Shown here: positions 12,955 to 61,156 of the stretch, one piece after another | Layout: every line of letters starts with the position of its first letter | How positions within the stretch are numbered: the first letter of the stretch is position 1 | Assembly (NCBI RefSeq): GCF_003946405.1 | Contig: NZ_RHOG01000004.1 | Coordinates: 1-64,000, forward strand | Reading direction: 5' to 3' | DNA: 64,000 nucleotides | Source: Lacticaseibacillus yichunensis | GTDB lineage: Bacteria; Bacillota; Bacilli; Lactobacillales; Lactobacillaceae | Notes under the pieces: model-generated | The model's input: the letters and a program-made list of their open reading frames with translations, nothing else | What the model was told of the DNA's origin: nothing | Database searches by the model: none | Position numbers and translations under genes: made by a program

Positions 12955-13137
12955 GTGAAATACACCTCAGAAAATTTTATTGAATTTTTCTCGAGACTCG
13001 CGACCGGCTTCAACGTGGGGCTTCGCCTGCCACCGCCATGGACGCGGACTCAACGATAAACTTCTGTTATTAGTGTACCACACTCCGAAATGCGTTGCGA
13101 AAAGTGGCATATTGTGTAAAAAAACGAGTAAACGCCC

Positions 13138-13285
13138 GGGTGGGCTCCGGCCGAAAATCGGCTGGAACGCTCCCAAGCAACTTTGAGCCCGCGGAAAGCG
13201 CGGTCTTAAAGCTTGCTTTCGGCGTAAGCGGCACAGCCGCCAACGCCGACGAGGGGGCTGAGCCGTTTTCGGCCGGAGCCCACCC
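13138..13285 (+). repeat. Family A structured repeat, copy A1
   Basis: The element is 148 bp. Its terminal arms (13138-13157 and 13266-13285) are exact 20-bp inverted copies. Inside are GGCTGGAACGCTCCCAAG, a hairpin around CTTTGAG/CTTAAAG, a hairpin GGCGT-GCGGC/GCCGC-ACGCC and GACGAGGGGGCTGAGCC. It lies between rnjB and the small membrane gene. Bases 12955-13137 and 13286-13482 hold no gene I can support. Confidence 0.8.
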
Positions 13286-13483
13286 TACATCAAGCATTAT
13301 AGATATGGCACTTTTGGCCGTCATTTCGCTGGATCGGTACGCTGTCATTTCGCGGGTCGGAGCCGGGACGTCGTGTGTCCCGAATTGTGTTGTGCTTGCT
13401 AGATATGTCCACCTCTCCTATCGATCTCGGCGAATTGAGAAGTCCAATCATTACCAGTTCTATTATTCCCCAGAATCAAAACA

Positions 13484-13633: not shown

Positions 13634-13786
13634 ATAGGTCAGCTCCTTTGTTTTGATGAGTTCATCGTAACTGGGAGTTGTGCGCGTATTTTGCGCAGAA
13701 GATGAAGGTCTTGTGGTGTTTTGCTTGCGTTTTGGTTAAGCGGCCACGGGCACACCAATCAGAGTTTGGTGACGCAGCCTAATTCG

Positions 13787-13908
13787 AGTTGAGCTTCGCC
13801 GAGCAGGGGTGAGACATGTAGTCGCCCTAGTCGCCTGATGGCCAAGTGCGCCATCAACCGCCCAGGGCGAACTACCTGCCCACCCCTATGCGCTCGGCTG
13901 CGCACCCT
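13787..13908 (-). repeat. Family B structured repeat, copy B6
   Basis: A 122-bp copy in minus orientation, with ends AGGGTGCGCAG and AAGCTCAACT, a conserved TTGATGGCGCACTTGGCCATC core hairpin split by its loop, and paired outer arms. It lies between the 37-residue gene and the rpsO terminator. Bases 13634-13786 show nothing else. Confidence 0.7.
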
Positions 13909-13910
13909 AA

Positions 13911-13933
13911 AGTTGGGCTCCGGTGCGCACCCT
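13911..13933 (-). repeat. Family B remnant (fused ends)
   Basis: On the minus strand AGGGTGCGCACC runs directly into GGAGCCCAACT. This joins the left and right ends of family B with the whole middle deleted. It abuts the T-run of the rpsO terminator. Confidence 0.6.
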
Positions 13934-19357: not shown

Positions 19358-19473
19358 AGGGTGCGGAGGCTCGCGGAATGGTGGGCCAGCTAACTTGGCT
19401 TGGGGCGGATGGCGCGCTTTGCCATCAGGTCCGGGCCAATTAGATGCCCCGCCATGCGAGCCGAAGCCCGACT
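19358..19473 (+). repeat. Family B structured repeat, copy B7
   Basis: The copy has ends AGGGTGCGGAGGC and GAAGCCCGACT, outer pairing GGTGGGC/GCCCCGCC and core hairpin GATGGCGCGCTTTGCCATC. It fills most of the gap between comEA and the sepM terminator. Confidence 0.65.
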
Positions 19474-19490
19474 GGGAAAGTGGGCACGCC

Positions 19491-22191: not shown

Positions 22192-22286
22192 AATGCCTCC
22201 TGAATGTTTCCGTTGATGCGTGACCGTTCAAACTTAGGTGGTGGGTACCGCCTCGCAGTATCGTGTATTGCTGTTACGGCAGTGTC

Positions 22287-22398
22287 GTGAGGCAAATGTC
22301 CGGGTCCGAGCAACTAAGGCTCCAATCACCTAGTCCAAAAATCGGACCTGGCGCTTGGAACACTTACCTGTCGGACCCAATAACGACATTTGCCTCAC
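22287..22398. repeat. Single ~112-bp hairpin element (element C)
   Basis: GTGAGGCAAATGTC at 22287-22300 is the exact inverse of 22385-22398. GGGTCCGA and TCGGACCC extend the pairing inward at 22302-22309 and 22371-22378. It sits between the pyc stop and the ylbG start. It has no T-run, so it is not a simple terminator. No second copy was seen in the window. Confidence 0.6.
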
Positions 22399-22406
22399 TT
22401 CTCGCT

Positions 22407-40044: not shown

Positions 40045-40490
40045 GAAGTGGCGGCACAATAACAAACCTTCGGGGATCGCCATTGTCGCTACTATTACCA
40101 TCGATCGCATTTGTCATTCTACCCACCACCTTTCATTCACTTTCCGGAGGCACGTTTTCGTTGCTGGCGCTAGCTTCCAACAAAAAACGCGCACACCAAT
40201 TGAGTATGCACGCGATACTTGCATCCCAATCGTTTAGTTTTAGCACTATACGCCTAGAAGGAGAACTTCAGCGGCATTAGCACAAGCCTTTATGGGCAAG
40301 CGCTGCTGACTCATTGGCATCTCTGGATGTTTCTGAGCAGTCGCATTGTTCGTATAGGAGCCTCACCTAACGGAAAGCACTGGATTTAATTTCAACTAAC
40401 ATATTATCAGTGAATGCACGCAATGTCAAGGATGAGCCCTTTCTTCTTCTTTCAGAAAAACGGAAGGAAAAGCGAAGCGTCTACGCACAC

Positions 40491-40638
40491 GGGGGTGATC
40501 CGGGTAGAAATTGGCTGGAACGCTCCCAAGTGACTTTAAGCCCGCACAGGCCACGGTCTTAAAGCTCACTTTCGGTGTAAGCGGCAGAGCCGCTAACACC
40601 GACGAGGGGGCTGAGCCATTTCTACCCGGAGCACCCCC
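40491..40638 (+). repeat. Family A structured repeat, copy A2
   Basis: It is exactly 148 bp, like A1. The terminal arms (40491-40510, 40619-40638) pair at 19 of 20 positions although their sequence differs from A1 (GGGTAGAAA/TTTCTACCC instead of GGCCGAAAA/TTTTCGGCC). The central GGCTGGAACGCTCCCAAG and GACGAGGGGGCTGAGCC are identical to A1. Bases 40045-40490 hold no gene I can support. Confidence 0.8.
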
Positions 40639-41005
40639 TTAAATCCAACACTCAATTGATCTGGCGGAAGGACCATCGCTGTACCTTTGTCATAAGGCCG
40701 TCTCAATCTGACATTGAGGTAATTGAATCAAAATTAGTTTTGCAAACTCAGCATCCGTCTATCAGATGCGACCGCAGACTCTAATCGCCTTGCTCAAGTC
40801 GAAAAAGGTTGCAAGTTTGGCTCATCTGGAAAGCACCATAGTTATCACGAATACCAGCGTTCAGGCCCAGCCTCCCATAATTTCCCGTAGCGGTTATGGC
40901 CAGCAAATGTACAACTTGTGAAAATGCTCTGTCCAATGCCAGCAACAAGGAGGTATCAAGCCACATGCCCGCCTGTAACGTATGTGGCTTGAGAACTGGA
41001 TCAGA
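40639..41005. other. AT-rich spacer between inverted A copies
   Basis: This 367-bp stretch is AT-richer than its surroundings and is bracketed by A2 and A3 in opposite orientation. A minus-strand frame at 40781-40966 (61 codons) has no ribosome site and no family match, so it may be a gene remnant. Confidence 0.4.
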
Positions 41006-41153
41006 GGGTGGGCTCCGGCCGAAAATGGCTCAGCCCCCTCGTCGGTGTTGACGGCTCTGCCGTCTACACCGAAAGCAAGCTTTGAGACCGCGCACTTTGC
41101 GGGCTCAAAGTTGCTTGGGAGCGTTCCAGCCACTTTTCGGCTGGAGCCCACCC
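41006..41153 (-). repeat. Family A structured repeat, copy A3
   Basis: It is 148 bp in the orientation opposite to A2. The arms 41006-41025 and 41134-41153 pair at 19 of 20 positions plus one G-T pair. The internal hairpins are CTTTGAG/CTCAAAG and GGTGT-GACGGC/GCCGTC-ACACC, with changes matched on both sides relative to A1 and A2. Confidence 0.8.
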
Positions 41154-41269
41154 GGGGGGTTACGCCAATTTACGAGTCTGTTTTCGTTAAAACCGCATGG
41201 GAAACTGGTTTGACAAGCCTCATCGTTGCGCGCATCATTTGTCTTAGTATTCTCACAAGGAGGCTGCTT

Positions 41270-49103: not shown

Positions 49104-50060
49104 ATGGGCGCGGCGTTTTTCTATATAATTTTCAATCCGGCAGCAAGCTCAGGGATGTCCGTCAACATTTTCAAAAAGGTGCGCGCGCGCCTGGACAATG
49201 AACACATTCCATACGAGATCAAAGTTTCGCGGTACGCAGGCCACGCGGTTCAACTGGCGCGGCAGATCGGCAGCTTTGGCAAACAGGAAAATGCTGTACT
49301 GATGGTCATCGGCGGCGACGGGACGCTTAATCAGGCGATCTGCGGACTGCGGAAAACAAGGCAAAAAGACATGCCGGTGGCCTACATTCCGGCGGGGTCT
49401 GGGAATGATTTTGCCCGAGGCATCAAAATGGCGCAGGATCCGATGAAGGCACTGGACCAGGTGCTTGCGGCAGACAAACCATTGCGGCTGGACATTGGCC
49501 AATACACAGAAGCGACCCGCGACGAAAGCGGCATTTTCGTCAACAACATCGGCGTTGGCTTTGATGGCTCCGTGATCGCAGCCACGAACCGCAGTCGCTA
49601 TAAACGCGTGTTGAACCGGGTGCACCTCGGCTCGCTCTCTTATGTGGCCGGCGTGATCCGCGTCTTTTTCTCCCGCAAGCCATTTCCGGTCGCAGTGACG
49701 GTCGATGGCCAGCGGACGCTGATTCAACGCGCGTTTCTCGTCACGACGACGAACCATCCTTATTTTGGCGGCGGCATCAAGATCTTGCCCATCGCCACGC
49801 CGGATGACGGCAAGCTCGACTTGATCGTCGTGGAGCAACTAAACATCCCCTACTTTTTCTTTTTGCTGGTGCAAATGTTGCGCAACAAGCATCTCAAGTA
49901 CAAAGCCGTGCATCACTTCGCCAGCCCGCACATCCACCTCGAGACCACAAGCCTCGAGTTTGGCCAAATGGACGGTGAGGAAATGGGCAGCCGCCCATTT
50001 GAACTCGACTTCACCGTCACCCAGCAAAATTTCTGGATCAAAAGAGAAATGGACAAATAA
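49104..50060 (+). CDS. Diacylglycerol/lipid kinase (DagK/YegS family)
   Basis: The 318-residue kinase has YIIFNPAASSG at the start, the nucleotide motif GGDGTLNQAI (residues ~70-79) and PAGSGNDFARG. It phosphorylates diacylglycerol released during cell-envelope synthesis so the lipid can be reused. ATG 49104 is set by AAAGGGG and the promoter. The stop codon is directly followed by repeat B1. Confidence 0.92.
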   Translation: MGAAFFYIIFNPAASSGMSVNIFKKVRARLDNEHIPYEIKVSRYAGHAVQLARQIGSFGKQENAVLMVIGGDGTLNQAICGLRKTRQKDMPVAYIPAGSGNDFARGIKMAQDPMKALDQVLAADKPLRLDIGQYTEATRDESGIFVNNIGVGFDGSVIAATNRSRYKRVLNRVHLGSLSYVAGVIRVFFSRKPFPVAVTVDGQRTLIQRAFLVTTTNHPYFGGGIKILPIATPDDGKLDLIVVEQLNIPYFFFLLVQMLRNKHLKYKAVHHFASPHIHLETTSLEFGQMDGEEMGSRPFELDFTVTQQNFWIKREMDK

Positions 50061-50181
50061 AGGGTGCGGAGGTGCGCGATTATGGTCGAGCAGGTAGGCT
50101 AGCCCAGCGCTTGATGGCGCTCTTAGCCATCGAGTGCTGGGCGTACCTAGCTGTCTCGACCATGCGCACCGGAGCCCAACT
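50061..50181 (+). repeat. Family B structured repeat, copy B1
   Basis: The 121-bp copy runs from AGGGTGCGGAGGTGCGCG to GCGCACCGGAGCCCAACT and begins at the base after the dagK stop codon. Nested pairing: GGTGCGC/GCGCACC, GGTCGAG/CTCGACC, CAGGTA/TACCT, AGCCCAGC/GCTGGGC and a core GATGGCGCTCTTAGCCATC. Confidence 0.8.
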
Positions 50182-50184
50182 GTA

Positions 50185-50293
50185 AGGGTGCAGAGGTGCG
50201 CGCTTATGGTGGGGCAGCTAACTTGGCTCGGGTGCTTGGTGGCGCACTTAGCCACCGAGTGCCCGAGACAGTTAGATGTCCCCACCCAACACC
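50185..50293 (+). repeat. Family B structured repeat, copy B2
   Basis: A tandem second copy with different arms that still pair (GGTGGGG/CCCCACC, GGCTCGGGTGC/GTGCCCGAG, GGTGGC/GCCACC). The right end is cut short after CCCCACC. Confidence 0.75.
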
Positions 50294-50309
50294 AAAAGCT
50301 CAAATAAAC

Positions 50310-50352
50310 AGCCGGTCCCCGCGATTTCCATCCTCGCAGGGGCCGGCTATTT
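50310..50352. terminator. Bidirectional terminator between dagK and the Eis-like gene
   Basis: AGCCGGTCCCCGCG and CGCAGGGGCCGGCT form a long stem between converging genes. Confidence 0.7.
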
Positions 50353-50391
50353 CAATTTCTCAAAACGTGTTTTCTATTGAATAGATGTCAC

Positions 50392-51603
50392 TCAGAAGTA
50401 ATCCGAGAAGTAAGGCTCATCCATTGGAATGACGTTCTCAAGAATCTTCAATGCCTTCTTCGACGCGGTCAAGCGCTCGATCGTGGCTAAATACGACGGC
50501 CGCCGGTAACTCATCAACATGGTTGTCAGCGTCTGAATGTCCAGCTCGACCGCCTCGCCCACCGGCCGCCGGGTGACATGCGGACTGCCATCGGGATTCC
50601 AGTAAAGGCCAAAGATGCCGTTGTTCCATTCCGCCAGCGGATCGGACACGATGAAGTGCACAGGCTCGCCTGGCTCCGCAAATGGGTAGCGTTTCAGGAA
50701 CTCGGCGACATCCACGATGCGCGCCATATAATACGGGTGAATCGTCTGGTAAATATCGCCATCCTCAAGCAGAAAATGAAGCGGCTCATTTTTATAAATA
50801 TTGCCTTTGACATGCTCGACCATGGAAAAATGGGCCGCAATAAAATTCCACAATCCCAGCCGGGCTTCCTGCGTGATGTAGACCATTTCCTTGACGTGAA
50901 AGACCTCGTCGGCGATCCAGTACAGCACGAAGCCTTGGGGCACATCGTTTGCGTCATAATAAACGCCCGCGGTGCGCTCCTCTTCATTTTCCCAGCGCCA
51001 GTATTCATCCCAGTTGAGCTGGTTGCGGATCATTGCGCCGTGGGTGTGCACGGCAAAGCGGTCATAGATCTCGATCACATCCGCATCATCGGAATCGAGG
51101 CGTTCGACATGGCCAGGCACCTCGATGGCCTTGGGCAGCTGCGTGTCTTTGACGTCAAAGGTCAGATGATCGGACATGATCTCCCAACCTTTTTTCCGGT
51201 AAAACGGAATGCTGTATGGATAAAGATACGAGATCCACTGATGATGTTCCCGCATGTGATCCAGTCCCAGCTTGACGAGGTCGTGCATCAGGCCATTGCC
51301 GGCGTATTCGGGATACGTGCCGACGCCGGTCAGCCCGGCCATATCAAAAACGGTGCCGTGAATATTCACACGACACGGGTAGATCGCCAGTTGCGAGATC
51401 AATTCATCGCCATGAAACCAGCCGATCACATCAGATTTTTCAAGGACTGGGCGCTTGGCGCGTTCCAGTTCCCCGTCTTCGTAGCCGCTTTCCTCAACTT
51501 CTTTGGCGGTCACTTGAAAAACATAGGCGAGCAGGTCGTTGAACTGCTCAAGATCATCCGTCGTCACCCGTCTGATCTCAAGGTCATCGCGGATATTGGA
51601 CAT
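50392..51603 (-). CDS. Eis-like GNAT N-acetyltransferase
   Basis: The ~403-residue protein has the Eis plan: an N-terminal GNAT domain with GLTGVGTYPEYAGNGLMHDLV (residues ~85-105), a second GNAT-like domain and a C-terminal SCP2-type lipid-binding domain. Eis enzymes acetylate lysines or aminoglycosides; the substrate here is unknown. ATG 51603 lies 1 nt past the recD2 stop; an in-frame GTG at 51615 overlapping recD2 is an alternative. It is last in the gpm-TPR-recD2-eis chain. Confidence 0.85.
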   Translation of the reverse strand: MSNIRDDLEIRRVTTDDLEQFNDLLAYVFQVTAKEVEESGYEDGELERAKRPVLEKSDVIGWFHGDELISQLAIYPCRVNIHGTVFDMAGLTGVGTYPEYAGNGLMHDLVKLGLDHMREHHQWISYLYPYSIPFYRKKGWEIMSDHLTFDVKDTQLPKAIEVPGHVERLDSDDADVIEIYDRFAVHTHGAMIRNQLNWDEYWRWENEEERTAGVYYDANDVPQGFVLYWIADEVFHVKEMVYITQEARLGLWNFIAAHFSMVEHVKGNIYKNEPLHFLLEDGDIYQTIHPYYMARIVDVAEFLKRYPFAEPGEPVHFIVSDPLAEWNNGIFGLYWNPDGSPHVTRRPVGEAVELDIQTLTTMLMSYRRPSYLATIERLTASKKALKILENVIPMDEPYFSDYF

Positions 51604-51604
51604 G

Positions 51605-54154
51605 TTATGACTCACTTTCCTTTTCTGGGCGAATGCCCTGCATGCCGATCATCGGGTCGATCGATTGCGCGAGTACCAGATCCGGCGTCAAGCGCCAATC
51701 GTTCGGCATCGCAGCATCCCCGACAGGTGCAGGCTCTGAATCTCCGACTGGCACGGGTTCTGTAGCTTGCGCAGGGCCTGCCGCATCGGCACCCCCAGTC
51801 CTCGCTTCATCATGAGGACGCGCTGAATCTGTGGTTGGAACCACTCCCGATTTTGCCACCGGTGCGTCATGCGTTTCTTCTTTATTATCCGGAGCTGGTT
51901 TGGCCTTGTCAACCGCGACCCGTCCAGGCATGGTCTCCTGAAGCCGGGCAACGAGACTGGTATGGCGGTTATCGGCCACTTCCTGCACCGCCAATTCAAA
52001 CGCACGCGGGTCACCCATCAGGATCAAAAAGTTGCGGGCGCGCGTCACCGCGGTATACAGTAAGTTTCGCCGCAACATCCGCCGACTCTGCAGGGTCAGC
52101 GGCAAGACGACCACGTCAAATTCGCTCCCTTGGGCTTTATGAATCGAGGTCGCATAAGCCAGGGTGATCTTCGTCCAGTCATTGCGTTTATATTGTAATT
52201 CGTTGCCGTCAAAATCGATGGTCAGCTCATCGGTCTTGCTGTCGGTATATTTGCCCTCCATGATGCCTTGAATGATTCCGATCTCGCCATTAAACACATT
52301 ATTTTCCGGATCATTGACCAATTGGAGCACCTTGTCGCCGATGCGGTAGCGGACGTTGCCAAAAACAACTTCCTTGGCCCGGGCATCACGCAGCGGATTC
52401 AAAATATCTTGAATCATCGGGTTCAGCTCGTCGATGCCGGCCACGCCGCGGTACATCGGGGCCAGCACCTGAATGCCGGTATGGTCGAATTTTCCCCCGG
52501 CCTTGGCGACAACTTGGCCGACTGCTTTGGGCAGTTGGTTCGGCGGGCACAAAATAAAGCTGCGATCCGCGGCTGGGCGCTGCCAATCCGCCGGGAGTTT
52601 GCCTTCGTTGATCGCATGGGCGAACGGAATAATCGAGCTCGACGCGTCCTGGCGGTGAATGTGCGTCAGCTCCATGGCGGGCAACACGCCGGCGCGAAGC
52701 AGATCCGCAAAGACCTGGCCGGGCCCGACGCTTGGCAGCTGATCCTTATCCCCCACCAAAATCAATTTGATGCCGGGATGAATCGCGGCCAAAAGCGTGC
52801 GGAAGAGATAGGTATCGACCATCGACATTTCATCGATGATCAGCAGCCCATCCGGCAGGTCCTTGGGTTCGTACTGGGTGCTGTCCACTGCCAATCCCAG
52901 CAGGCGGTGAATAGTGCCGGCGGGCAAATTCGTGGTCTCGGCGATGCGCTTAGCAGCTCGACCAGTCGGTGCCGCCAACATGATTGGAAACGTCTCGTCT
53001 TGGTAGCTGTTCACATCAAGGCTCAAGTCATTGAGCGCGGCATAGGTGTGGACAATCCCATTGATGACTGTGGTCTTTCCTGTCCCTGGTCCGCCGGTGA
53101 GCAGAAAAACAGGCGCAGCCATCGCGCTTTTGATTGCCGTTTCCTGCGACTCATCGTAAGTGACCCCGCTGGCTTTGGCAGCGGCGCGCAACGCTTTTTT
53201 CATGCGGGCCGCCTTGACTTTCTTAGTGTCGCCTTCCGTCATCTGGCGCAGCCGTGTCGCGATCTCCCATTCCGCGTCGAACAAGCGCTTGGGATAGACC
53301 TTATCGCCATCTGCTACGACCTTGTTGGCATTGGCCAGGGCCAGCACCGCATCCGCCACGGCTGTGGGCGCGATCTCAACGTTGCGCGCACTTTCAAGTA
53401 GCCCGATGCTTTGGTCCAGCAGCGGCTTGAGCGCGACATAGGTATCCCCTTCGCCATCGGTCAAGCTGGACAGCGTGTCGAAAACAGCGCCTTGCAGCCG
53501 GGTCGGGTCATCGGGCGCAATATCCAGCCGCGCCGCAATGGCATCCGCACGCTTGAACCCGATGCCGTCGATGTCGGCGATCAGCTGGTACGGATTTTCC
53601 TTGATCACTTCCAGCGCGTCGGTGTCATAGGTCTGATAGATCTTCGCGGCCATGTTTGACGTGAAGCCAAAATCATTCAGGCCAATGATCACCTGCTCCA
53701 TCCCCAGATTGGCCTGAAGCGTATCGATCAGCGTTTTGCGCCGGTCCGCCTTGGGCACCAGCGGCACCAAGACAGCTGGGTCCTTCATGATTTGATCGAT
53801 CGCGGTGACACCCAGCGCCTCAACAATGCGCTCGGCTGTTTTGGTGCCGATGCCCGGAAATTTATCTGAACTCAAATAATTGACCAGCCCCTGTTTGCTG
53901 GTCGGGCGGTCGGCGTGATAATTGTCCGCGGCAAATTGCGGTCCGTATTTCGGATGATTGACGAGCTTGCCCGTGAACGTGTACGCCTCGTCTTCTTTGA
54001 TGTCGCCAAATGAGCCGGTGACCACGATCGTCGGTTCCGCCCAGGTGAAACTCGCGGTACCGACTGCGACTTCCATGATCTTGAAGAAGTTCGCCGCATT
54101 TTCAAAATAAATGCTTTTCACCCGGCCGGACAGCGTCGCCTCGTCATCACTCAT
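51605..54154 (-). CDS. recD2: ATP-dependent DNA helicase RecD2
   Basis: The 849-residue 5'-3' helicase has an N-terminal OB-like domain, helix-hairpin-helix repeats (FPGIGTKTAERIVEALG, IDGIGFKRADAIA), Walker A GGPGTGKTT (residues 354-362), DEMSMVD and the C-terminal SIHKAQGSEFD motif. It acts in DNA repair without RecBC. The last ~110 residues are an Ala/Pro/Glu-rich tail that is probably disordered. It overlaps the TPR gene by 8 nt. Confidence 0.96.
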   Translation of the reverse strand: MSDDEATLSGRVKSIYFENAANFFKIMEVAVGTASFTWAEPTIVVTGSFGDIKEDEAYTFTGKLVNHPKYGPQFAADNYHADRPTSKQGLVNYLSSDKFPGIGTKTAERIVEALGVTAIDQIMKDPAVLVPLVPKADRRKTLIDTLQANLGMEQVIIGLNDFGFTSNMAAKIYQTYDTDALEVIKENPYQLIADIDGIGFKRADAIAARLDIAPDDPTRLQGAVFDTLSSLTDGEGDTYVALKPLLDQSIGLLESARNVEIAPTAVADAVLALANANKVVADGDKVYPKRLFDAEWEIATRLRQMTEGDTKKVKAARMKKALRAAAKASGVTYDESQETAIKSAMAAPVFLLTGGPGTGKTTVINGIVHTYAALNDLSLDVNSYQDETFPIMLAAPTGRAAKRIAETTNLPAGTIHRLLGLAVDSTQYEPKDLPDGLLIIDEMSMVDTYLFRTLLAAIHPGIKLILVGDKDQLPSVGPGQVFADLLRAGVLPAMELTHIHRQDASSSIIPFAHAINEGKLPADWQRPAADRSFILCPPNQLPKAVGQVVAKAGGKFDHTGIQVLAPMYRGVAGIDELNPMIQDILNPLRDARAKEVVFGNVRYRIGDKVLQLVNDPENNVFNGEIGIIQGIMEGKYTDSKTDELTIDFDGNELQYKRNDWTKITLAYATSIHKAQGSEFDVVVLPLTLQSRRMLRRNLLYTAVTRARNFLILMGDPRAFELAVQEVADNRHTSLVARLQETMPGRVAVDKAKPAPDNKEETHDAPVAKSGVVPTTDSARPHDEARTGGADAAGPAQATEPVPVGDSEPAPVGDAAMPNDWRLTPDLVLAQSIDPMIGMQGIRPEKESES

Positions 54155-54812
54155 CGCTGTCTCCCTGCGCCTTCAAAAAGCCCGCGATGTCGCGGACATG
54201 GCCGGCCTCTTGATCATAACCAGCCGGATCGAGTTGTTTCGCCTCATCGAGCCACTGACTGCCATCCTTACCTTGCGCCGCCTGACTCATCGCATAGGTG
54301 AACAGGATGCGCGCATTTTTCCGGGCCAAAAGCGGCGCCAGCACTTCATCCGCCTGGGTAAACGCACCGACTGCCAGCATCAGCTGCGCGCACAACAGCG
54401 CGGCATCGACCTTGTGCGGCGCGGCCTCATGGGCGGTGAGCGCAAACGCCAGTGCCTTGGCCGGCTGCCCCGCGCGCTGATAGGCCAGGGCGGTCATGTA
54501 TTGCGCGTCTTCACCAAGCGTCCCCTTCGCGCCGGTGACTTGTTGAAAATAGGAAAGTGCCAGCTGATCATTGCCCTGCGTATACGCGAGCACGCCAAAA
54601 TCGTACAGGAGCTCCGGGTCGTTTGGAAAAAGGCCCAGCGCCTGGACCAGCAATTCCCGCGCCTCATCATCGGCGGAGATGCTGATCAACATCATCGCCA
54701 GCGTCGCATAATTTTTCGGGTCATGTGGGTGGTCATCAATTGCCTGGACCGCGCGATGAATCGCCTCATCGTGGTCCCCGCGTTGAAATTGTTTGACGAG
54801 ATCGTTGGTCAT
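54147..54812 (-). CDS. TPR-repeat protein (recD2 neighbour)
   Basis: The 221-residue protein has repeated helix pairs typical of TPRs (DHDEAIHRAVQAIDDHPHDPKNYATLAMML, split over two helices, and DEARELLVQALGLFPNDPELLYDFG). No signal peptide is present. A TPR gene before recD2 and after mnmA is standard in lactobacilli; its partner is unknown. ATG 54812 follows AGGAGG. Confidence 0.85.
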   Translation of the reverse strand: MTNDLVKQFQRGDHDEAIHRAVQAIDDHPHDPKNYATLAMMLISISADDEARELLVQALGLFPNDPELLYDFGVLAYTQGNDQLALSYFQQVTGAKGTLGEDAQYMTALAYQRAGQPAKALAFALTAHEAAPHKVDAALLCAQLMLAVGAFTQADEVLAPLLARKNARILFTYAMSQAAQGKDGSQWLDEAKQLDPAGYDQEAGHVRDIAGFLKAQGDSDE

Positions 54813-54822
54813 CTCGCGCCTC

Positions 54823-55485
54823 CTAGATCGTGTCTGTCGCCTCAAGCGGCTTGGTCAAAAATTCGGTGTCGTTCCATTTCAATAGCGTGAATGGCAAATT
54901 CGGGCCATGTGCCTCTAAAATGGTGACACTGCTGTTGGTCAGCCCGCCGTCCTTGCGCATATCCTTGATCGGCGTGCCAAGCAGACTTTGAATCAGGGCC
55001 ACAAGCGCGGCGCCATGGCTGACAAATAAAAGATTCGCAGTGCCGGTCGTATCTGCCCGGACCGCATCCAAGACCACCGGCTGCATCCGCTTGATCAAGG
55101 CCTCAAAGGATTCGCCTGCCACCTCTTCGGCGTGATACTCGCCCGGAGCATGGCGAAACGCGTGCAACGCATCTGGATATTTTTCGGCGACCTCGGTGAA
55201 TTTGAGGCCTTCCATTTTGCCCAGATCAAACTCCCGCATCCCCACCGTGACGGTCACGGGAATGGCCTGCGCCAGGTCTTTAAGCAGCACATTGGCTGTC
55301 GTTTTCGCCCGCGGCAAGGGACTGACATAGGCATGCGCAAACGGCACCTTTTTCAAATACTGGGCGAGCTGATGAATCTGATCAAAGCTCTCAGGCAACA
55401 GCGGACTGTCCCCGTTTGCCCCCTGATAGCGGCCCTCCAGGTTCCATTGGGTCTTTCCGTGGCGCACAAAATATAACCGAGTCAA
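54823..55485 (-). CDS. Histidine phosphatase (phosphoglycerate mutase family)
   Basis: The 220-residue protein begins TRLYFVRHGKTQWN with the phosphorylated His in RHG. A second His lies in LLFVSHGAAL, and the E-rich FDLGKMEG segment is typical. These are usually broad phosphatases rather than true mutases. The TTG start at 55485 has GGGAGG 7 nt upstream; the long N-terminal extension of the open frame is not supported. It lies 10 nt before the TPR gene. Confidence 0.88.
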   Translation of the reverse strand: MTRLYFVRHGKTQWNLEGRYQGANGDSPLLPESFDQIHQLAQYLKKVPFAHAYVSPLPRAKTTANVLLKDLAQAIPVTVTVGMREFDLGKMEGLKFTEVAEKYPDALHAFRHAPGEYHAEEVAGESFEALIKRMQPVVLDAVRADTTGTANLLFVSHGAALVALIQSLLGTPIKDMRKDGGLTNSSVTILEAHGPNLPFTLLKWNDTEFLTKPLEATDTI

Positions 55486-55696
55486 AGCATGTCCTCCCGC
55501 GGCCGCACTGCGGCTGTATATCTTCCTATTATGGTGAAACAACGCCGGGATTTCAAGGCAGGCCGGCGATCGGTCGTCAACGAAATGGCTACCAATGTTG
55601 GTTTTTGCGCGCCTGGGGACTTGGGTCGGTTCCTTTCTTGTTGACAAAGGCCATTGGTTGGCGCGACGTGCTACGATATTGCCGGGGAGTGATGAC

Positions 55697-55951
55697 ATGG
55701 GACTATTCTTGTTGATCGCGCTTGGCGGCGGCGTCTTGACCGCGGGCGCGGGATGGCTGGCCGTCATCCGCGACAGCCAATGGCTCGGGGCGCTGACAGG
55801 CTACCTGGCTTTTTGCACGCTGATCAACGCCTCGATCGCCGGGCTCGATGTGAAAATGATGCCAGGGGCGCTGGCCATCAGTGGCTTGGCTGGCGTTTTG
55901 TTTTTTGTCTGGCTGGGCGTAAGGGTACTGTGGCAACGGCGTAAAAAATAG
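55697..55951 (+). CDS. Small three-helix membrane protein
   Basis: The 84-residue protein has three hydrophobic helices (residues ~3-20, ~30-48 and ~57-76) and ends in a basic QRRKK tail. No family is recognised. ATG 55697 follows GGGGAG and an extended -10 TGCTACGAT. The TAG stop overlaps the first bases of repeat B3. It is transcribed against the surrounding genes. Confidence 0.65.
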   Translation: MGLFLLIALGGGVLTAGAGWLAVIRDSQWLGALTGYLAFCTLINASIAGLDVKMMPGALAISGLAGVLFFVWLGVRVLWQRRKK

Positions 55952-56069
55952 GGTGTGAAGGTGCGCGGTTATGGTTGAGCAGGTAGGCTAGCCTGGCGCT
56001 TGGGGCCGTCCTTAGCCCCGAGTGCCAGGTGTACCTAGCTGTCTCAACCATGCGCACCGTAACCCAACT
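55950..56069 (+). repeat. Family B structured repeat, copy B3
   Basis: The 120-bp copy starts inside the stop codon of the small membrane gene. Arms pair as GGTTGAG/CTCAACC and AGCCTGGCGC/TGCCAGGT, with core GGGGCCGTCCTTAGCCCC. These differ from B1 at matched positions on both sides. Confidence 0.8.
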
Positions 56070-56070
56070 G

Positions 56071-56101
56071 AGAGTGTGAAGGTGCGCGGTTATGGTCGAG
56101 T
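56071..56101 (+). repeat. Family B left-end fragment, B4
   Basis: AGAGTGTGAAGGTGCGCGG and the next 12 bases repeat the left end of B3 directly after it, then the similarity stops at the terminator. Confidence 0.7.
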
Positions 56102-56109
56102 CCCTTGCA

Positions 56110-56147
56110 AAAAAGAGGTCAGACAATTTTTCGTCTGACCCCTTTTT
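56110..56147. terminator. Bidirectional terminator, mnmA and the small membrane gene
   Basis: AGGTCAGAC and GTCTGACCC-CT pair, with a T-run on the + strand and an A-run (T on the minus strand) at the other side. Confidence 0.8.
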
Positions 56148-56170
56148 ATTTGCTCGCACCTCAGAATGAA

Positions 56171-57412
<1,242 letters not shown>

Positions 57413-57635
57413 CTATTGCCTTTTCAGTGCCATTGAGATTTCCCAACACTTGAAATGAGCCATGCCTGGCAGATATATAGCCCCTTTGCTGGGTGAGTCC
57501 TACCAAATTTATCGTTGCATCATTTCTTCCCAGCTCTGCCAAACGAATTCGACTTGTGCAGTCCTTTTTTCGGTGTTGCTAGTCCGTTTCCTCAGCACTC
57601 TCTCAGTCTGCCCTTTCTCCCCACCTCTCAAAATC

Positions 57636-57677
57636 AAAAAAGCGACCCGCCTCCATTTGCCGCAGAGGTGAGTCGCT
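57636..57677 (-). terminator. Aldo-keto reductase terminator
   Basis: AGCGACTCACCTC and GAGGCGGGTCGCT form a 13-bp stem with G-T pairs, followed by six T on the minus strand. Confidence 0.8.
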
Positions 57678-57687
57678 TGCTTGTTGA

Positions 57688-58524
57688 TCAGTGTTGGGTC
57701 TTGTTGCCTGGTTGTTGCGGGAGCGCGTTCAGGGTCGCCATGTCTGCGTCGCTGATCTCGAAGTCCAGGTTAGTGTTGGCTTCGATGTGCGCGGTGCTTG
57801 AGGCTTTTGGCAGTGGCAGGGTGCCGTTTTGCAGGCAGAAGCGCAGGGCCAGTTGGGCGACGGAGACGTTGTTTTTATCCGCGATGCGGGTGATGGTCGG
57901 GTCATCGAGCAGGCCGCCTGTAGCCAACGGTGAGTAGGCCTCGACCAGCATCCCCGCTTTTTCTGCGGCGGCGGTGTTCTTCGGCTGGGTGAAGCCGGCG
58001 AAGTAACGAATCTGATCGACGGCCGGCACAACGTCGGTATTGGCGATCAGGTTGGCGATGTCGTGATCGTTGAAGTTGGAAATGCCGATCGCGCGAATCT
58101 TGCCAGCCTTGTACAGCTTGACCATTTCCGCCCACACGGCGATGTTGTCCTTATCATGGTTATCGCCGATGCGGTTCCATGGCCACGGCGCGTGAATCAG
58201 CCACAAATCAAGATAATCGACACCTAGGTTTTGGATGGTCTGGTTAAAATAGCCTTCGACCTTCTTGGCGTCCTTGACCTCGGCCGGCAGCTTGGAGGTG
58301 ATGAACACATCCTTGCGCGCCAGGCCGCTGTCCTTGATCGCCGCGCCGACACTTTCCTCATTGCCGTACGCAAACGCGGTGTCAATGTGCCGGTAGCCGG
58401 CACGCAGCGCATCCGCCACGGCGTCATACGCTTTTTGGCCGTTTGGAATCTGCCAGGTCCCAAAGCCGACCTTTGGAATCTCAACGCCATTATTCAAGGT
58501 GTAAGTCTCTGTCAAAATAGTCAT
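57688..58524 (-). CDS. Aldo/keto reductase
   Basis: The 278-residue NADPH-dependent enzyme has the catalytic set: Asp and Tyr in RHIDTAFAYGNEESVG, Lys in VFITSKLP and His in LWLIHAPWP. GISNF and the C-terminal RFCLQNGTLPLPKAS cofactor region are present. It is similar to 2,5-diketogluconate or methylglyoxal reductases; the substrate is unknown. ATG 58524 follows AAAGGAG. It sits inside the usually continuous iscS-DUF1831-mnmA block with its own terminator, so it may be a later insertion. Confidence 0.92.
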   Translation of the reverse strand: MTILTETYTLNNGVEIPKVGFGTWQIPNGQKAYDAVADALRAGYRHIDTAFAYGNEESVGAAIKDSGLARKDVFITSKLPAEVKDAKKVEGYFNQTIQNLGVDYLDLWLIHAPWPWNRIGDNHDKDNIAVWAEMVKLYKAGKIRAIGISNFNDHDIANLIANTDVVPAVDQIRYFAGFTQPKNTAAAEKAGMLVEAYSPLATGGLLDDPTITRIADKNNVSVAQLALRFCLQNGTLPLPKASSTAHIEANTNLDFEISDADMATLNALPQQPGNKTQH

Positions 58525-58698
58525 CAAATTCGCTCCTTTCGTTAAGTCCTCTTCATGATACCGTTTTCGCCAAAAAGATGATAGCAGCGCTGCTTATTCT
58601 GGTCGTTTTTCCCGCGGGTGGCCGGAACCCCGACGCCACGAAGTCGGTAATACGCTCGGGTCGCCGCGCCGCCCCGCCCGTCTGCGCGCCCAGCCCAC

Positions 58699-58741
58699 GA
58701 AAAATGCCCCGCCGCGGCCGCATTCGGCGCCACAACGAGGC
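58699..58741 (-). terminator. Terminator after the DUF1831 gene
   Basis: GCCTCGTTGTGGC pairs fully with GCCGCGGCGGGGC using G-T pairs, and a T-run follows on the minus strand. Confidence 0.75.
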
Positions 58742-58752
58742 ATCATTCTGAT

Positions 58753-59097
58753 CTATTTTTTCAGCTCAAAGACACCGCGGTCAATCAGGTTATCCATGAG
58801 GTACTCGTATTGCTCGACGTTGTCTTTCGTCGCGTCGTGTTTAAAAATATCGACGGCCTTCATGCCATTGCCTGTGGTCGCAGAGATCTGGAACTTGTCG
58901 AGATCCTTGCTGACGGTGATCTTGAGCTTGTTGGCGGCGGTGTAAGGCGAATTCGGGTCCAGCGAACGCTCGAGCTGGAAGTTGCCGTTGTTCGTCTTGA
59001 TGAAGCCAACGTCCATCAAGGTGTAACGTTTGATCTGCGGGCTGATCTGATAGGTGTTCTGATCACCCAACGCGGCCCCTGTTGTGCTTAATGCCAT
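58753..59097 (-). CDS. DUF1831 family protein
   Basis: The 114-residue protein matches DUF1831 (YTLMDVGFIKTNNGNFQLER, DNLIDRGVFELKK at the end). The family has a TATA-box-binding-protein-like fold and is found next to cysteine desulfurase genes in lactobacilli; its role in sulfur transfer is suspected only from position. ATG 59097 is used; GTG-type codons upstream are less likely. It follows iscS by 66 nt. Confidence 0.88.
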   Translation of the reverse strand: MALSTTGAALGDQNTYQISPQIKRYTLMDVGFIKTNNGNFQLERSLDPNSPYTAANKLKITVSKDLDKFQISATTGNGMKAVDIFKHDATKDNVEQYEYLMDNLIDRGVFELKK

Positions 59098-59163
59098 ATG
59101 AGACACCCCTTACCTGCGGCGCTGCCGCAATTGTTTACCTTTTCATTGTACCATGACGACTGG

Positions 59164-60324
59164 TCAGCCGGCATGTTTGGCGAGCAAGCGGGTCGAGATT
59201 TTTGCGATCGCGGTGGCCAGCTTAGAAATATCCAAGGCGGTGGTGTCCTTGCCAAATGAAATGCGCAGCGATTCGCCAATACGCGGGCTATCCTTGCCGA
59301 ACATCGCGGTCAAGACGTGCGACGGCTCGAGGCTGCCAGCGGTGCAAGCGGACCCGCCGGAAACGGCAAAGCCGGCGAGGTCGAGGTTTGTCTGCATGGC
59401 ATACGTGGAGCAGCCTGGCAGCCAAATGTTGAAGACGTGATTTAAGTTGTCCAGTTCGACTTGGCCATTGACTTTGAACGCGACCCCACTGATGGTGAGA
59501 TCCTGCATCAACTGCTGTTTGAGGCCGTAGTATTTGGCCTGCCGATCCGCTTTTTCCTGCGGGGTGATCAACTTGACAGCCGCCGCGAACCCGGCGATCG
59601 CCGGAATATTTTCCGTGCCCGCGCGCCGCTTCATTTCCTGCTCCCCGCCTTTGAGAAACGGTGAGAAGTTTAGGCCCTCTCGGCGGTATAAAAAGCCGAT
59701 TCCTTTTGGCCCATTCAGCTTATGGGCCGAAACGGACAACAGGTCGATGCCAAGCGCGTGGACGTCGAATTCGAGCAGGCCATACGCCTGGGTCGCGTCG
59801 ACATGGAGCCAGGCTTGATGCTCGGCCAAACGCTCAGCGATCGCCGCGATCGGCATGACAGAGCCAACTTCATTGTTGCCCATCATGATCGTGACAAGAA
59901 TCGTTTGGTCGTCCAGCGCCGCATCAAAATCGGCGAGGCTGATCACGCCATTTTCATCGACTGGCAGATAGGTGACGGTGAAGCCCTCTTGTTCAAGTGC
60001 CGCCAGCGGTTTGAGCACACTGGGATGCTCGATGGCGGTGGTGATAATGTGTTTGCCAAGCGCCGCCCGCGCATGCGCCGTCTGGGTGATCGCGGTATTG
60101 TTGGCCTCCGTCGCCCCTGAGGTGAAAACAATTTCGCCTGGCTTGGCATGAATACTGTTTGCCATCACTTGGTGGGCGTCGTCCAAGACCGTGTGCGCTT
60201 GCCGACCAAACCAGTGGGTCGAGCTCGCATTGCCAAAATCTTCGGCCATCTGCGTGGTCATGGCGTCAATGACAGGCTTGGCCATCGGAGTGGTGGCGGC
60301 GTTGTCGAGATAAATGTGTTCCAA
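59164..60324 (-). CDS. iscS: Cysteine desulfurase (IscS/NifS family)
   Basis: The 386-residue pyridoxal-phosphate enzyme takes sulfur from cysteine for tRNA thiolation and other uses. It has YLDNAATTP at the start, VSAHKLNGPKGIGFLY with the cofactor Lys, and SGGSACTAGSLEPS with the active Cys. The TTG at 60324 is chosen because AAGGAAG precedes it and homologues begin MEHIY; a GTG three codons upstream is possible. Repeat B5 lies between it and mtnN. Confidence 0.95.
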   Translation of the reverse strand: MEHIYLDNAATTPMAKPVIDAMTTQMAEDFGNASSTHWFGRQAHTVLDDAHQVMANSIHAKPGEIVFTSGATEANNTAITQTAHARAALGKHIITTAIEHPSVLKPLAALEQEGFTVTYLPVDENGVISLADFDAALDDQTILVTIMMGNNEVGSVMPIAAIAERLAEHQAWLHVDATQAYGLLEFDVHALGIDLLSVSAHKLNGPKGIGFLYRREGLNFSPFLKGGEQEMKRRAGTENIPAIAGFAAAVKLITPQEKADRQAKYYGLKQQLMQDLTISGVAFKVNGQVELDNLNHVFNIWLPGCSTYAMQTNLDLAGFAVSGGSACTAGSLEPSHVLTAMFGKDSPRIGESLRISFGKDTTALDISKLATAIAKISTRLLAKHAG

Positions 60325-60344
60325 AAAAGCCACTTCCTTAGTTG

Positions 60345-60465
60345 AGTTGGGGCTCGGTGCGCATGGGTGGACATCTAACTGACCCAGTCACTCGGGGCTA
60401 AGACCGCCCCCAAGTGTCTGGCCCAAACTAGCTGCTCAGACCTAAACGCCGCGCGCCGCACCCTT
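60345..60465 (-). repeat. Family B structured repeat, copy B5
   Basis: The 121-bp copy in minus orientation starts within the mtnN stop codon (TAAGGGTGCGG) and ends GAGCCCCAACT. The outer arms and the core GGGGGCGGTCTTAGCCCC still pair. Transcripts from mtnN to iscS would carry it. Confidence 0.7.
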
Positions 60466-61156
60466 ATGAGTTGTTCTTGAGATATGCCAGCAGCATTTGG
60501 GCGCTTTGCTTGCCGGCATCGATGATAAAATCGTCAAAATTGACCGAGGCGCTTTCGTCGCCGACATCACTCATCGCGCGGATGATGACAAACGGTACAC
60601 CGAATTGATGTGCCACTTGGCCGATCGCCGCGCCTTCCATTTCACTGGCCAACGCGTCTGGGTAGATCGCCAAAATTTTGCCAATGGCGGGCTTGCTGGC
60701 AATGAACTGATCACCGGAAACGATCAGGCCAACATGGGTCGTTAGCGCAACGTCTCGCGCGGCCTCGGCGATTGCCGCAACAGCTGTAGCGTCCGCCTCA
60801 AATTTTTGCGGCTGCTGGGGCAGCTGGCCTGGCAGGTAGCCAAAAGCCGTGGCGTCGACGTCGTGATACGCGACTGCATCGGAGATCACGACATCGCCGA
60901 TTGCAAGACCTTCGCCGATGCCACCGGCGCTCCCTGTGTTGATCAGGAGATCTGGCTTGAACACTTCCAACAACACGGCCGCAGTGAGCGCCGCTTGCAC
61001 TTTGCCGATGCCCGATTCGACCAAGGCGACCTCGTGTCCGGCTAGCTGGCCAGAATAAAAGCGTTGACCGGCGACCAGCGTTTCTTGTCGGTCAGTCAGC
61101 TGGTTGACCAGCGTGCGGATCTCTTCTTCCATGGCGCAGATAATACCGAGTTTCAT
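60464..61156 (-). CDS. mtnN: 5'-methylthioadenosine/S-adenosylhomocysteine nucleosidase
   Basis: The 230-residue enzyme splits adenine from methylthioadenosine and S-adenosylhomocysteine. It has the start MKLGIICAMEEEIRTL, NTGSAGGIGEGL, SEMEGAAIGQVAHQFGVPF and SDVGDE motifs of the family, including the catalytic Glu and Asp. AGAAGGA precedes the ATG. It follows the small membrane gene by 18 nt. Confidence 0.97.
   Translation of the reverse strand: MKLGIICAMEEEIRTLVNQLTDRQETLVAGQRFYSGQLAGHEVALVESGIGKVQAALTAAVLLEVFKPDLLINTGSAGGIGEGLAIGDVVISDAVAYHDVDATAFGYLPGQLPQQPQKFEADATAVAAIAEAARDVALTTHVGLIVSGDQFIASKPAIGKILAIYPDALASEMEGAAIGQVAHQFGVPFVIIRAMSDVGDESASVNFDDFIIDAGKQSAQMLLAYLKNNS

Follow-up and report, generated by a model that had tools for sequence, protein, structure and literature searches.

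Hairpin units in the 64-kb window

The window, by which we mean the whole stretch of 64,000 nt analyzed here (positions 1 to 64,000 of contig NZ_RHOG01000004.1 of Lacticaseibacillus yichunensis), carries several hairpin-forming units of about 120 nt, and three of them, B1, B3 and B5, begin on or directly after the stop codon of the gene upstream. B1 starts at 50061, the base directly after the dagK TAA (50058-50060). B3 starts at 55950, which is the A of the TAG (55949-55951) that ends a small ORF. B5, on the minus strand, starts at 60464, the last A of the mtnN TAA (60466-60464). The placement of these three units, first given in a preliminary description of this DNA, is exact to the base in each case. 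The relevant features of the window are as follows:

13784..13908, minus strand: further unit, matched by the repeat model
19358..19476, plus strand: further, diverged unit (90.0 bits)
50061..50184, plus strand: B1 unit (131.0 bits)
50185..50290, plus strand: B2, second unit of the dagK array, 3′-truncated and followed by a terminator
55949..55951, plus strand: stop codon (TAG) of the small ORF, to which B3 contributes two of the three bases
55950..56071, plus strand: B3, full hairpin unit (MFE -81.4 kcal/mol, z -9.97; 127.7 bits)
56072..56101, plus strand: B4, 3′ stub, the initial ~30 nt of the next unit (sequence match at 56071-56100)
56110..56149, no strand assigned: terminator hairpin GGTCAGAC/GTCTGACC between the array and the convergent mnmA, read from the sequence
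60342..60464, minus strand: B5 unit, between mtnN and a same-strand cysteine desulfurase-like gene (81.3 bits)

The range 55950-56101 thus comprises one complete unit (B3) and a stub of about 30 nt of the next one (B4), and the terminator beyond it has an A-tract at one side and a T-tract at the other. Ahead of the unit at 13784-13908 stands a shortened one (13909-13932), which has no inner hairpin and borders on the T-tract of a terminator. Such shortened units of about 20 nt, consisting of the outer stem only, were also seen elsewhere (for example, at locus L107), the inner hairpin looking as if it had been deleted between GGAG flanks.

In Pfam, the gene before B1 matches DAGK_cat and YegS_C, mtnN matches PNP_UDP_1, mnmA matches tRNA_Me_trans, and the gene after B5 matches Aminotran_5. 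A Pfam search with the 90-aa ORF before B3 returned no family. This ORF is present in a sister species (genome G021), where it is 93% identical, with differences that look mostly silent when judged by eye; it is absent from the other 15 genomes compared around mnmA. Its stop codon is built differently in the two species. In the L. yichunensis genome (G000), the TAG is made up of a T followed by the unit's first two bases, while in G021 the stop is a TGA located two bases upstream of the unit.

Copy number and distribution of the repeat family

The B units belong to a hairpin-forming interspersed repeat family of Lacticaseibacillus that is old and genus-wide. The unit is about 120 nt long (about 118-125 nt among 58 aligned units), reads AGGGTGCGGAG...GGAGCCC(A/G)ACT and folds into a near-perfect hairpin; units are joined head-to-tail in arrays. 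A sequence search with a single unit found 55 places in G000, and a covariance model built from 58 units found at least 150 matches in the same genome. The G000 sample, consisting of the window and the stretches around the best 150 model matches (566 kb, in which poor copies are under-represented), contains 222 units, grouped in 100 same-strand arrays with 1 to 6 units each. The 0.81 Mb sampled from G021 contain 63 arrays with a total of 112 units, which make up about 1.5% of this DNA and extrapolate to about 386 units (roughly 390) and about 217 arrays per 2.8 Mb. The G021 tiles were chosen irrespective of arrays, yet many of their sites are common to G000; therefore only the more distant species represented by G006, whose stretches were picked around its best 150 matches, counts as an independent one. 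Genes were called with a home-made hexamer model in all three genomes, and 5 of the 63 G021 arrays are without one neighbor and so missing from one of the counts given below.

Among 40 relatives searched, the repeat was matched in 20 of the 24 members of the genus and in none of the 16 genomes outside it. An exact pattern of the repeat was matched in L. mingshuiensis only. Plasmid and phage collections, each searched with one unit, gave no match. In a search of the window against Rfam 15, no family reached the gathering score for the repeat, the region 49900-60600 giving only weak, chance-like matches (E up to 5); the M-box magnesium riboswitch at 40218-40381 (minus strand, 122.6 bits) was alone in reaching it. 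The literature searched, in which subscription journals were sparsely covered, contained no report of this kind of repeat from Lactobacillus or Lacticaseibacillus, so that an earlier description elsewhere is possible. L. johnsonii is the only lactobacillus mentioned in the accessible text of a survey of stem-loop families (PMC2267715).

Two unit subtypes coexist in G006 (L181-L200). Their ends are CCCGACGA, with AC as the 5′ flank, and CCCGTTTA, with TA as the 5′ flank; in the latter subtype the flank often yields a TAG stop.

Structure and strand of the hairpin

Of the 38 consensus pairs, 28 show changes on both sides. Paired cells amount to 96.2%, compared with 82.0% in shuffled alignments and 29-39% when the pairing is slid, and each of the five covariation measures is higher than in any of 500 shuffles and collapses under slid pairing. 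Compensatory covariation above controls, the generic mark of a structured RNA, is therefore present. The 110 units of G006 have the same structure, with 29 pairs and 92.3% of cells paired in an alignment that was fitted to the model.

Three further observations concern the strand. First, the sense RNA is more stable than the antisense RNA in all 193 complete units (mean -74.2 versus -61.3 kcal/mol), which do not constitute 193 independent tests because the units are related. Second, in otherwise Watson-Crick pairs, G-U cells outnumber A-C cells in both of two unit sets (67 versus 19, and 116 versus 53), and three pairs are conserved as G-U at matching places in the two sets. Third, the hairpin contains a conserved three-by-three internal loop, with G in column 8 (58 of 58 units) and A in column 10 (55 of 58) on one side, and G at 113 (57 units) and A at 115 (55 units) on the facing side. 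Taken together, these observations favor a sense-strand RNA, or a strand-specific single-stranded DNA form, as the conserved form of the element rather than a perfect DNA palindrome. The hairpin is equally stable in arrays opposed to both neighbors and in those at stop codons (-75.8 and -73.5 kcal/mol, respectively), and the structure is therefore not maintained solely where it would be part of a 3′ UTR.

Position of the arrays relative to gene boundaries

The arrays are flush on their 5′ side with a functional end, above all a stop codon or a terminator T-tract. Among the 100 arrays of G000, 51 have a same-strand gene on the 5′ side, and in 33 of these the 5′ edge lies within 6 nt of the stop codon, whereas 3.9 would be expected under uniform placement in the same gaps. 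Twenty-nine of the 33 start at -1 to +6; none of the 51 arrays starts at 7-27 nt, and 18 start at 28 nt or more. The 5′ edge is likewise within 6 nt of the stop in 19 of 29 arrays in G021 (random intergenic placement gave a mean of 1.0 and a maximum of 6 in 5000 draws) and in 20 of 36 in G006, with one array at 7-27 nt in each of these two genomes. By comparison, the 3′ edge is found within 6 nt of a stop codon in only 2 of 54 arrays in G000, 0 of 30 in G021 and 0 of 24 in G006. Within 27 nt of a stop, there are 33 G000 arrays by the 5′ edge versus 9 by the 3′ edge (totals 51 and 54; Fisher p 5e-7), and in G006 the proportions are 21/36 and 2/24 (p 1e-4).

The preliminary description also had each element reading in the direction of the upstream gene. 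This holds for B1, B3 and B5, but not for the family: its orientation to the gene on the 5′ side is unbiased (51 co-oriented versus 49 opposed arrays of 100 in G000; binomial p 0.92). Of the two genome-wide preferences at issue, that for stop codons is thus borne out in three species and that for orientation is not. The stop-codon rule is real and one-sided, and it is conditional on the array being in a stop-adjacent gap, where arrays are mostly sense-oriented.

The other arrays begin at boundaries of different kinds. Sixteen of the 18 remaining co-oriented arrays in G000 have a terminator just upstream, the start of its T-tract being at most 12 nt away in 13 of them. In 49 of the 100 arrays, the 5′ edge is at the start side of a divergent gene, never less than 13 nt from the start, and the antisense strand at these edges shows the promoter signal of the divergent gene (z 1.08 and 1.02). 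Promoters belonging to the arrays themselves were also considered and rejected: the 5′ flanks contain no sigma-70-like sense signal (mean z -0.1 and 0.17 in two opposed classes).

In genes free of arrays, the median distance from the stop codon to the terminator stem is 20 nt (178 of 391 genes with a detected terminator). Terminator avoidance was rejected as the sole cause of the flushness, as a median of 20 nt would not leave zero arrays at 7-27 nt. The flushness is tighter than terminator avoidance predicts, so a targeting rule that escaped this analysis is conceivable.

The terminators of G000 often end in TTTTTTGATTC, whether the repeat follows or not (L063, L072, L074, L075, L076, L096 and others), and GATTC is the commonest 5-mer after runs of at least five T (22 of 2223). 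T(5+)GATTC was considered as a part of the element and discarded, since the same tail is found at terminators without arrays.

The two edges of the arrays also differ in precision. With few exceptions the G000 arrays start at unit position 1, and in G006 51 of 58 start within the first four positions. At the 3′ end, 85 of the 100 G000 arrays finish with a partial unit, or stub, and 83 of these 85 stubs break off at or before position 73 of 124, within or close to the rising arm of the unit. Partial units form the 3′ end in 55 of 63 arrays in G021 (50 of them ending at or before position 73) and in 43 of 58 in G006 (38 at or before position 70). Of 400 random places, 19 also passed the score for stubs, which means that chance may account for about 5% of the stubs. 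Sharp at the 5′ edge and ragged at the 3′ edge, the arrays look as if they had been copied in one direction, the process stopping on entry into a hairpin. No enzyme for such copying was found: G001, G006 and G011 have neither PF01797 nor PF00078.

Comparison between species

Both flanks of 38 of the 100 G000 arrays are contained in the G021 tiles. Most of these places are occupied in both species, with lengths differing by approximately whole units. The empty orthologous sites, proposed as a check in the preliminary description, did not appear: no clean empty site was seen at any of the 38 testable places. When the five shortest G021 alleles were aligned, the readable ones retained a unit stub or remnant, and no target duplication could be demonstrated. 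These alleles have the look of collapsed arrays or of divergent gaps and were rejected as pre-insertion sites.

Many orthologous units of G000 and G021 are 91-98% identical. Within one array, the median best match of a unit is 78.5% (n=97), compared with 90% to units of other arrays (n=193). Being closer to units of other arrays than to their array-mates, the units move or convert between existing arrays more often than new sites are founded. In G000 and G021 an array follows the dagK stop codon, and G006 has a diverged one there; seven further genomes with a dagK match have no array behind this gene. Of the 33 stop-abutting genes of G000, four were matched in the G006 stretches (dagK lies outside these stretches), and one of the four has an array at its end.

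Origin and possible function

We give a probability of about 0.5 to the following reading: the family is an old hairpin repeat whose arrays are flush with functional ends on their 5′ side, and which in transcribed gaps is mainly sense-oriented, where a REP-like action near the stop codon would be expected. The stop codon itself would not be recognized as a target; arrays would simply occupy the gap between neighboring signals. Copies located in transcribed 3′ ends or operon gaps would stay mostly sense, presumably because in these places the sense RNA alone is tolerated or of use. At such sites, the transcript would carry a stem beginning 2-8 nt past the stop codon. In E. coli, 260 of 496 REPs are within 15 nt of a stop codon and are able to stall ribosomes, according to the relevant part of PMC12306157, citing its reference 17. 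By analogy, a stem this close to the stop may hinder the terminating ribosome as do E. coli REPs at 15 nt or less, and may also block 3′ exonucleases and offer a double-stranded site for processing. We lean slightly towards the position being a by-product of a selfish repeat with local effects, over its being kept for the effect. A parasite with local effects fits the data best, and a dedicated role in the 3′ UTR is a live alternative.

It is possible, though we rather doubt it, that the repeat is purely selfish or neutral, i.e. junk residing in scarce non-functional space, where spacer is deleted until the array meets a stop codon, a T-tract or a promoter, with no selected effect on the host. 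The flushness at several kinds of boundary, the equal preservation of the structure in every context, the turnover of arrays by whole units between the sister species and the confinement to one genus are all consistent with this. However, it leaves the one-sidedness unexplained: 33 arrays in G000 meet a stop codon with their 5′ edge and 2 of 54 with their 3′ edge, and the asymmetry recurs in three species.

A role in the 3′ untranslated region was suggested from the beginning. Near stop codons, such a role is possible in view of the sense bias (33 versus 9 arrays within 27 nt) and the sense-RNA signature, and the presence of B5 inside a likely operon (mtnN and the cysteine desulfurase-like gene) points the same way. 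As the purpose of the family, that is, an element selected for its position (for mRNA protection or tuning of termination, for instance) with all other copies as by-products, it is unlikely: 49 of the 100 arrays run opposite to the gene at the 5′ edge, their hairpins are equally preserved, and most relatives have no array at mtnN and dagK. A more far-reaching proposal, to which we attach only a small probability, is that of a genus-wide structured RNA outside Rfam 15, spread as a repeat and serving as a sense-only 3′ end module that supplies or abuts the stop codon, a common regulator of termination and mRNA decay for dozens of genes. If this were true, the host would be using one hairpin family as a common regulator across all these genes.

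Site-specific insertion is improbable. It would require an enzyme that positions the element with its 5′ edge at a stop codon or a terminator end (a short T/A-rich tract). The precise 5′ and ragged 3′ edges agree with such an enzyme, as do the A-rich 5′ flank with G nearly excluded at -1 (4%), and the fact that a unit start or its variants directly follow 11 of the 29 T(4+)GATTC strings found in the stretches sampled. Nevertheless, no common target emerges, as stop codons, T-tracts and the start sides of divergent genes are all used; the Y1 (HUH) transposase (PF01797), present in two copies in G000, is absent from the copy-rich G001, G006, G011 and G014; reverse transcriptase (PF00078) is absent from G000, G001, G006, G008 and G011; and none of the 38 orthologous places was seen to be empty. 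Each enzyme being absent from some element-rich genomes, both were rejected as drivers of the family. The narrower proposal that the elements insert at a stop-codon target is not supported either: a terminator precedes 16 of the 18 remaining sense arrays, 49 of the 100 arrays begin next to a divergent gene, and no clean empty site was seen. The stop codon as such is therefore probably not the target.

That the family is of the REP/RAYT kind, moved as single-stranded DNA by a Y1 transposase, is very improbable: the repeat is palindromic, intergenic, strand-asymmetric and tandem, and G000 itself has two Y1 copies, but the presence of Y1 does not track the element across the genus and the unit is about 120 nt long, versus 20-40 nt for REP in the relevant text of PMC3733652. 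A resemblance to integron attC sites was rejected, there being no partner motif before the unit start.

Relation to known repeat families

The REP, BIME and REPIN repeats of enterobacteria and pseudomonads are many-copy intergenic palindromes often located directly behind stop codons; the present family is likewise intergenic and enriched near stop codons. It differs from REP/RAYT systems, as far as the consulted sections describe them, in having units of about 118-125 nt instead of a 20-40 nt palindrome with a conserved terminal tetranucleotide, and in lacking a Y1 transposase common to its carriers. Arrays of one orientation, head-to-tail and ending in a 3′ stub, further distinguish it from REP.

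BOX, RUP and SPRITE of Streptococcus pneumoniae are similar in being small, interspersed, RNA-foldable repeats of a Gram-positive genus, and their authors favor a parasitic nature; BOX has a tandem inner module and SPRITE is found near the 3′ ends of genes, as the relevant parts of PMC3049150 describe. They belong to another genus. Precise abutment on stop codons was not found for them in those parts of the paper, and the boxA-(boxB)n-boxC modular build has no counterpart here, where arrays begin and end within one kind of unit. MITEs and ERIC/IRU elements are also short, non-coding, palindromic and intergenic, but in the present family neither a target duplication nor a terminal inverted repeat besides the hairpin could be demonstrated, and no clean empty site was seen. 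A retroelement would be expected to have a reverse transcriptase in its carriers, unlike the five genomes without PF00078 named above.

The family represents a second, independent case of hairpin repeats directly behind stop codons, in Gram-positive bacteria. The question long attached to REP, whether such repeats are regulatory devices or tolerated parasites, thereby becomes testable in food-grade laboratory strains. Arrays that are free in orientation outside transcribed gaps and sense-oriented inside them constitute a natural experiment on selection at the RNA level.

Other repeats in the window

Two further repetitive features were seen in the window. A separate long palindrome at 22283-22402, with arms GTGAGGCAAATGTC and GACATTTGCCTCAC, gives a weak match to the model (47 bits) and seems to be a hairpin element of another kind. 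In addition, three copies of a repeat of about 160 nt, one of them inverted, are located at 13122-13286, 40475-40655 and 40989-41163; these copies are 78-89% alike.
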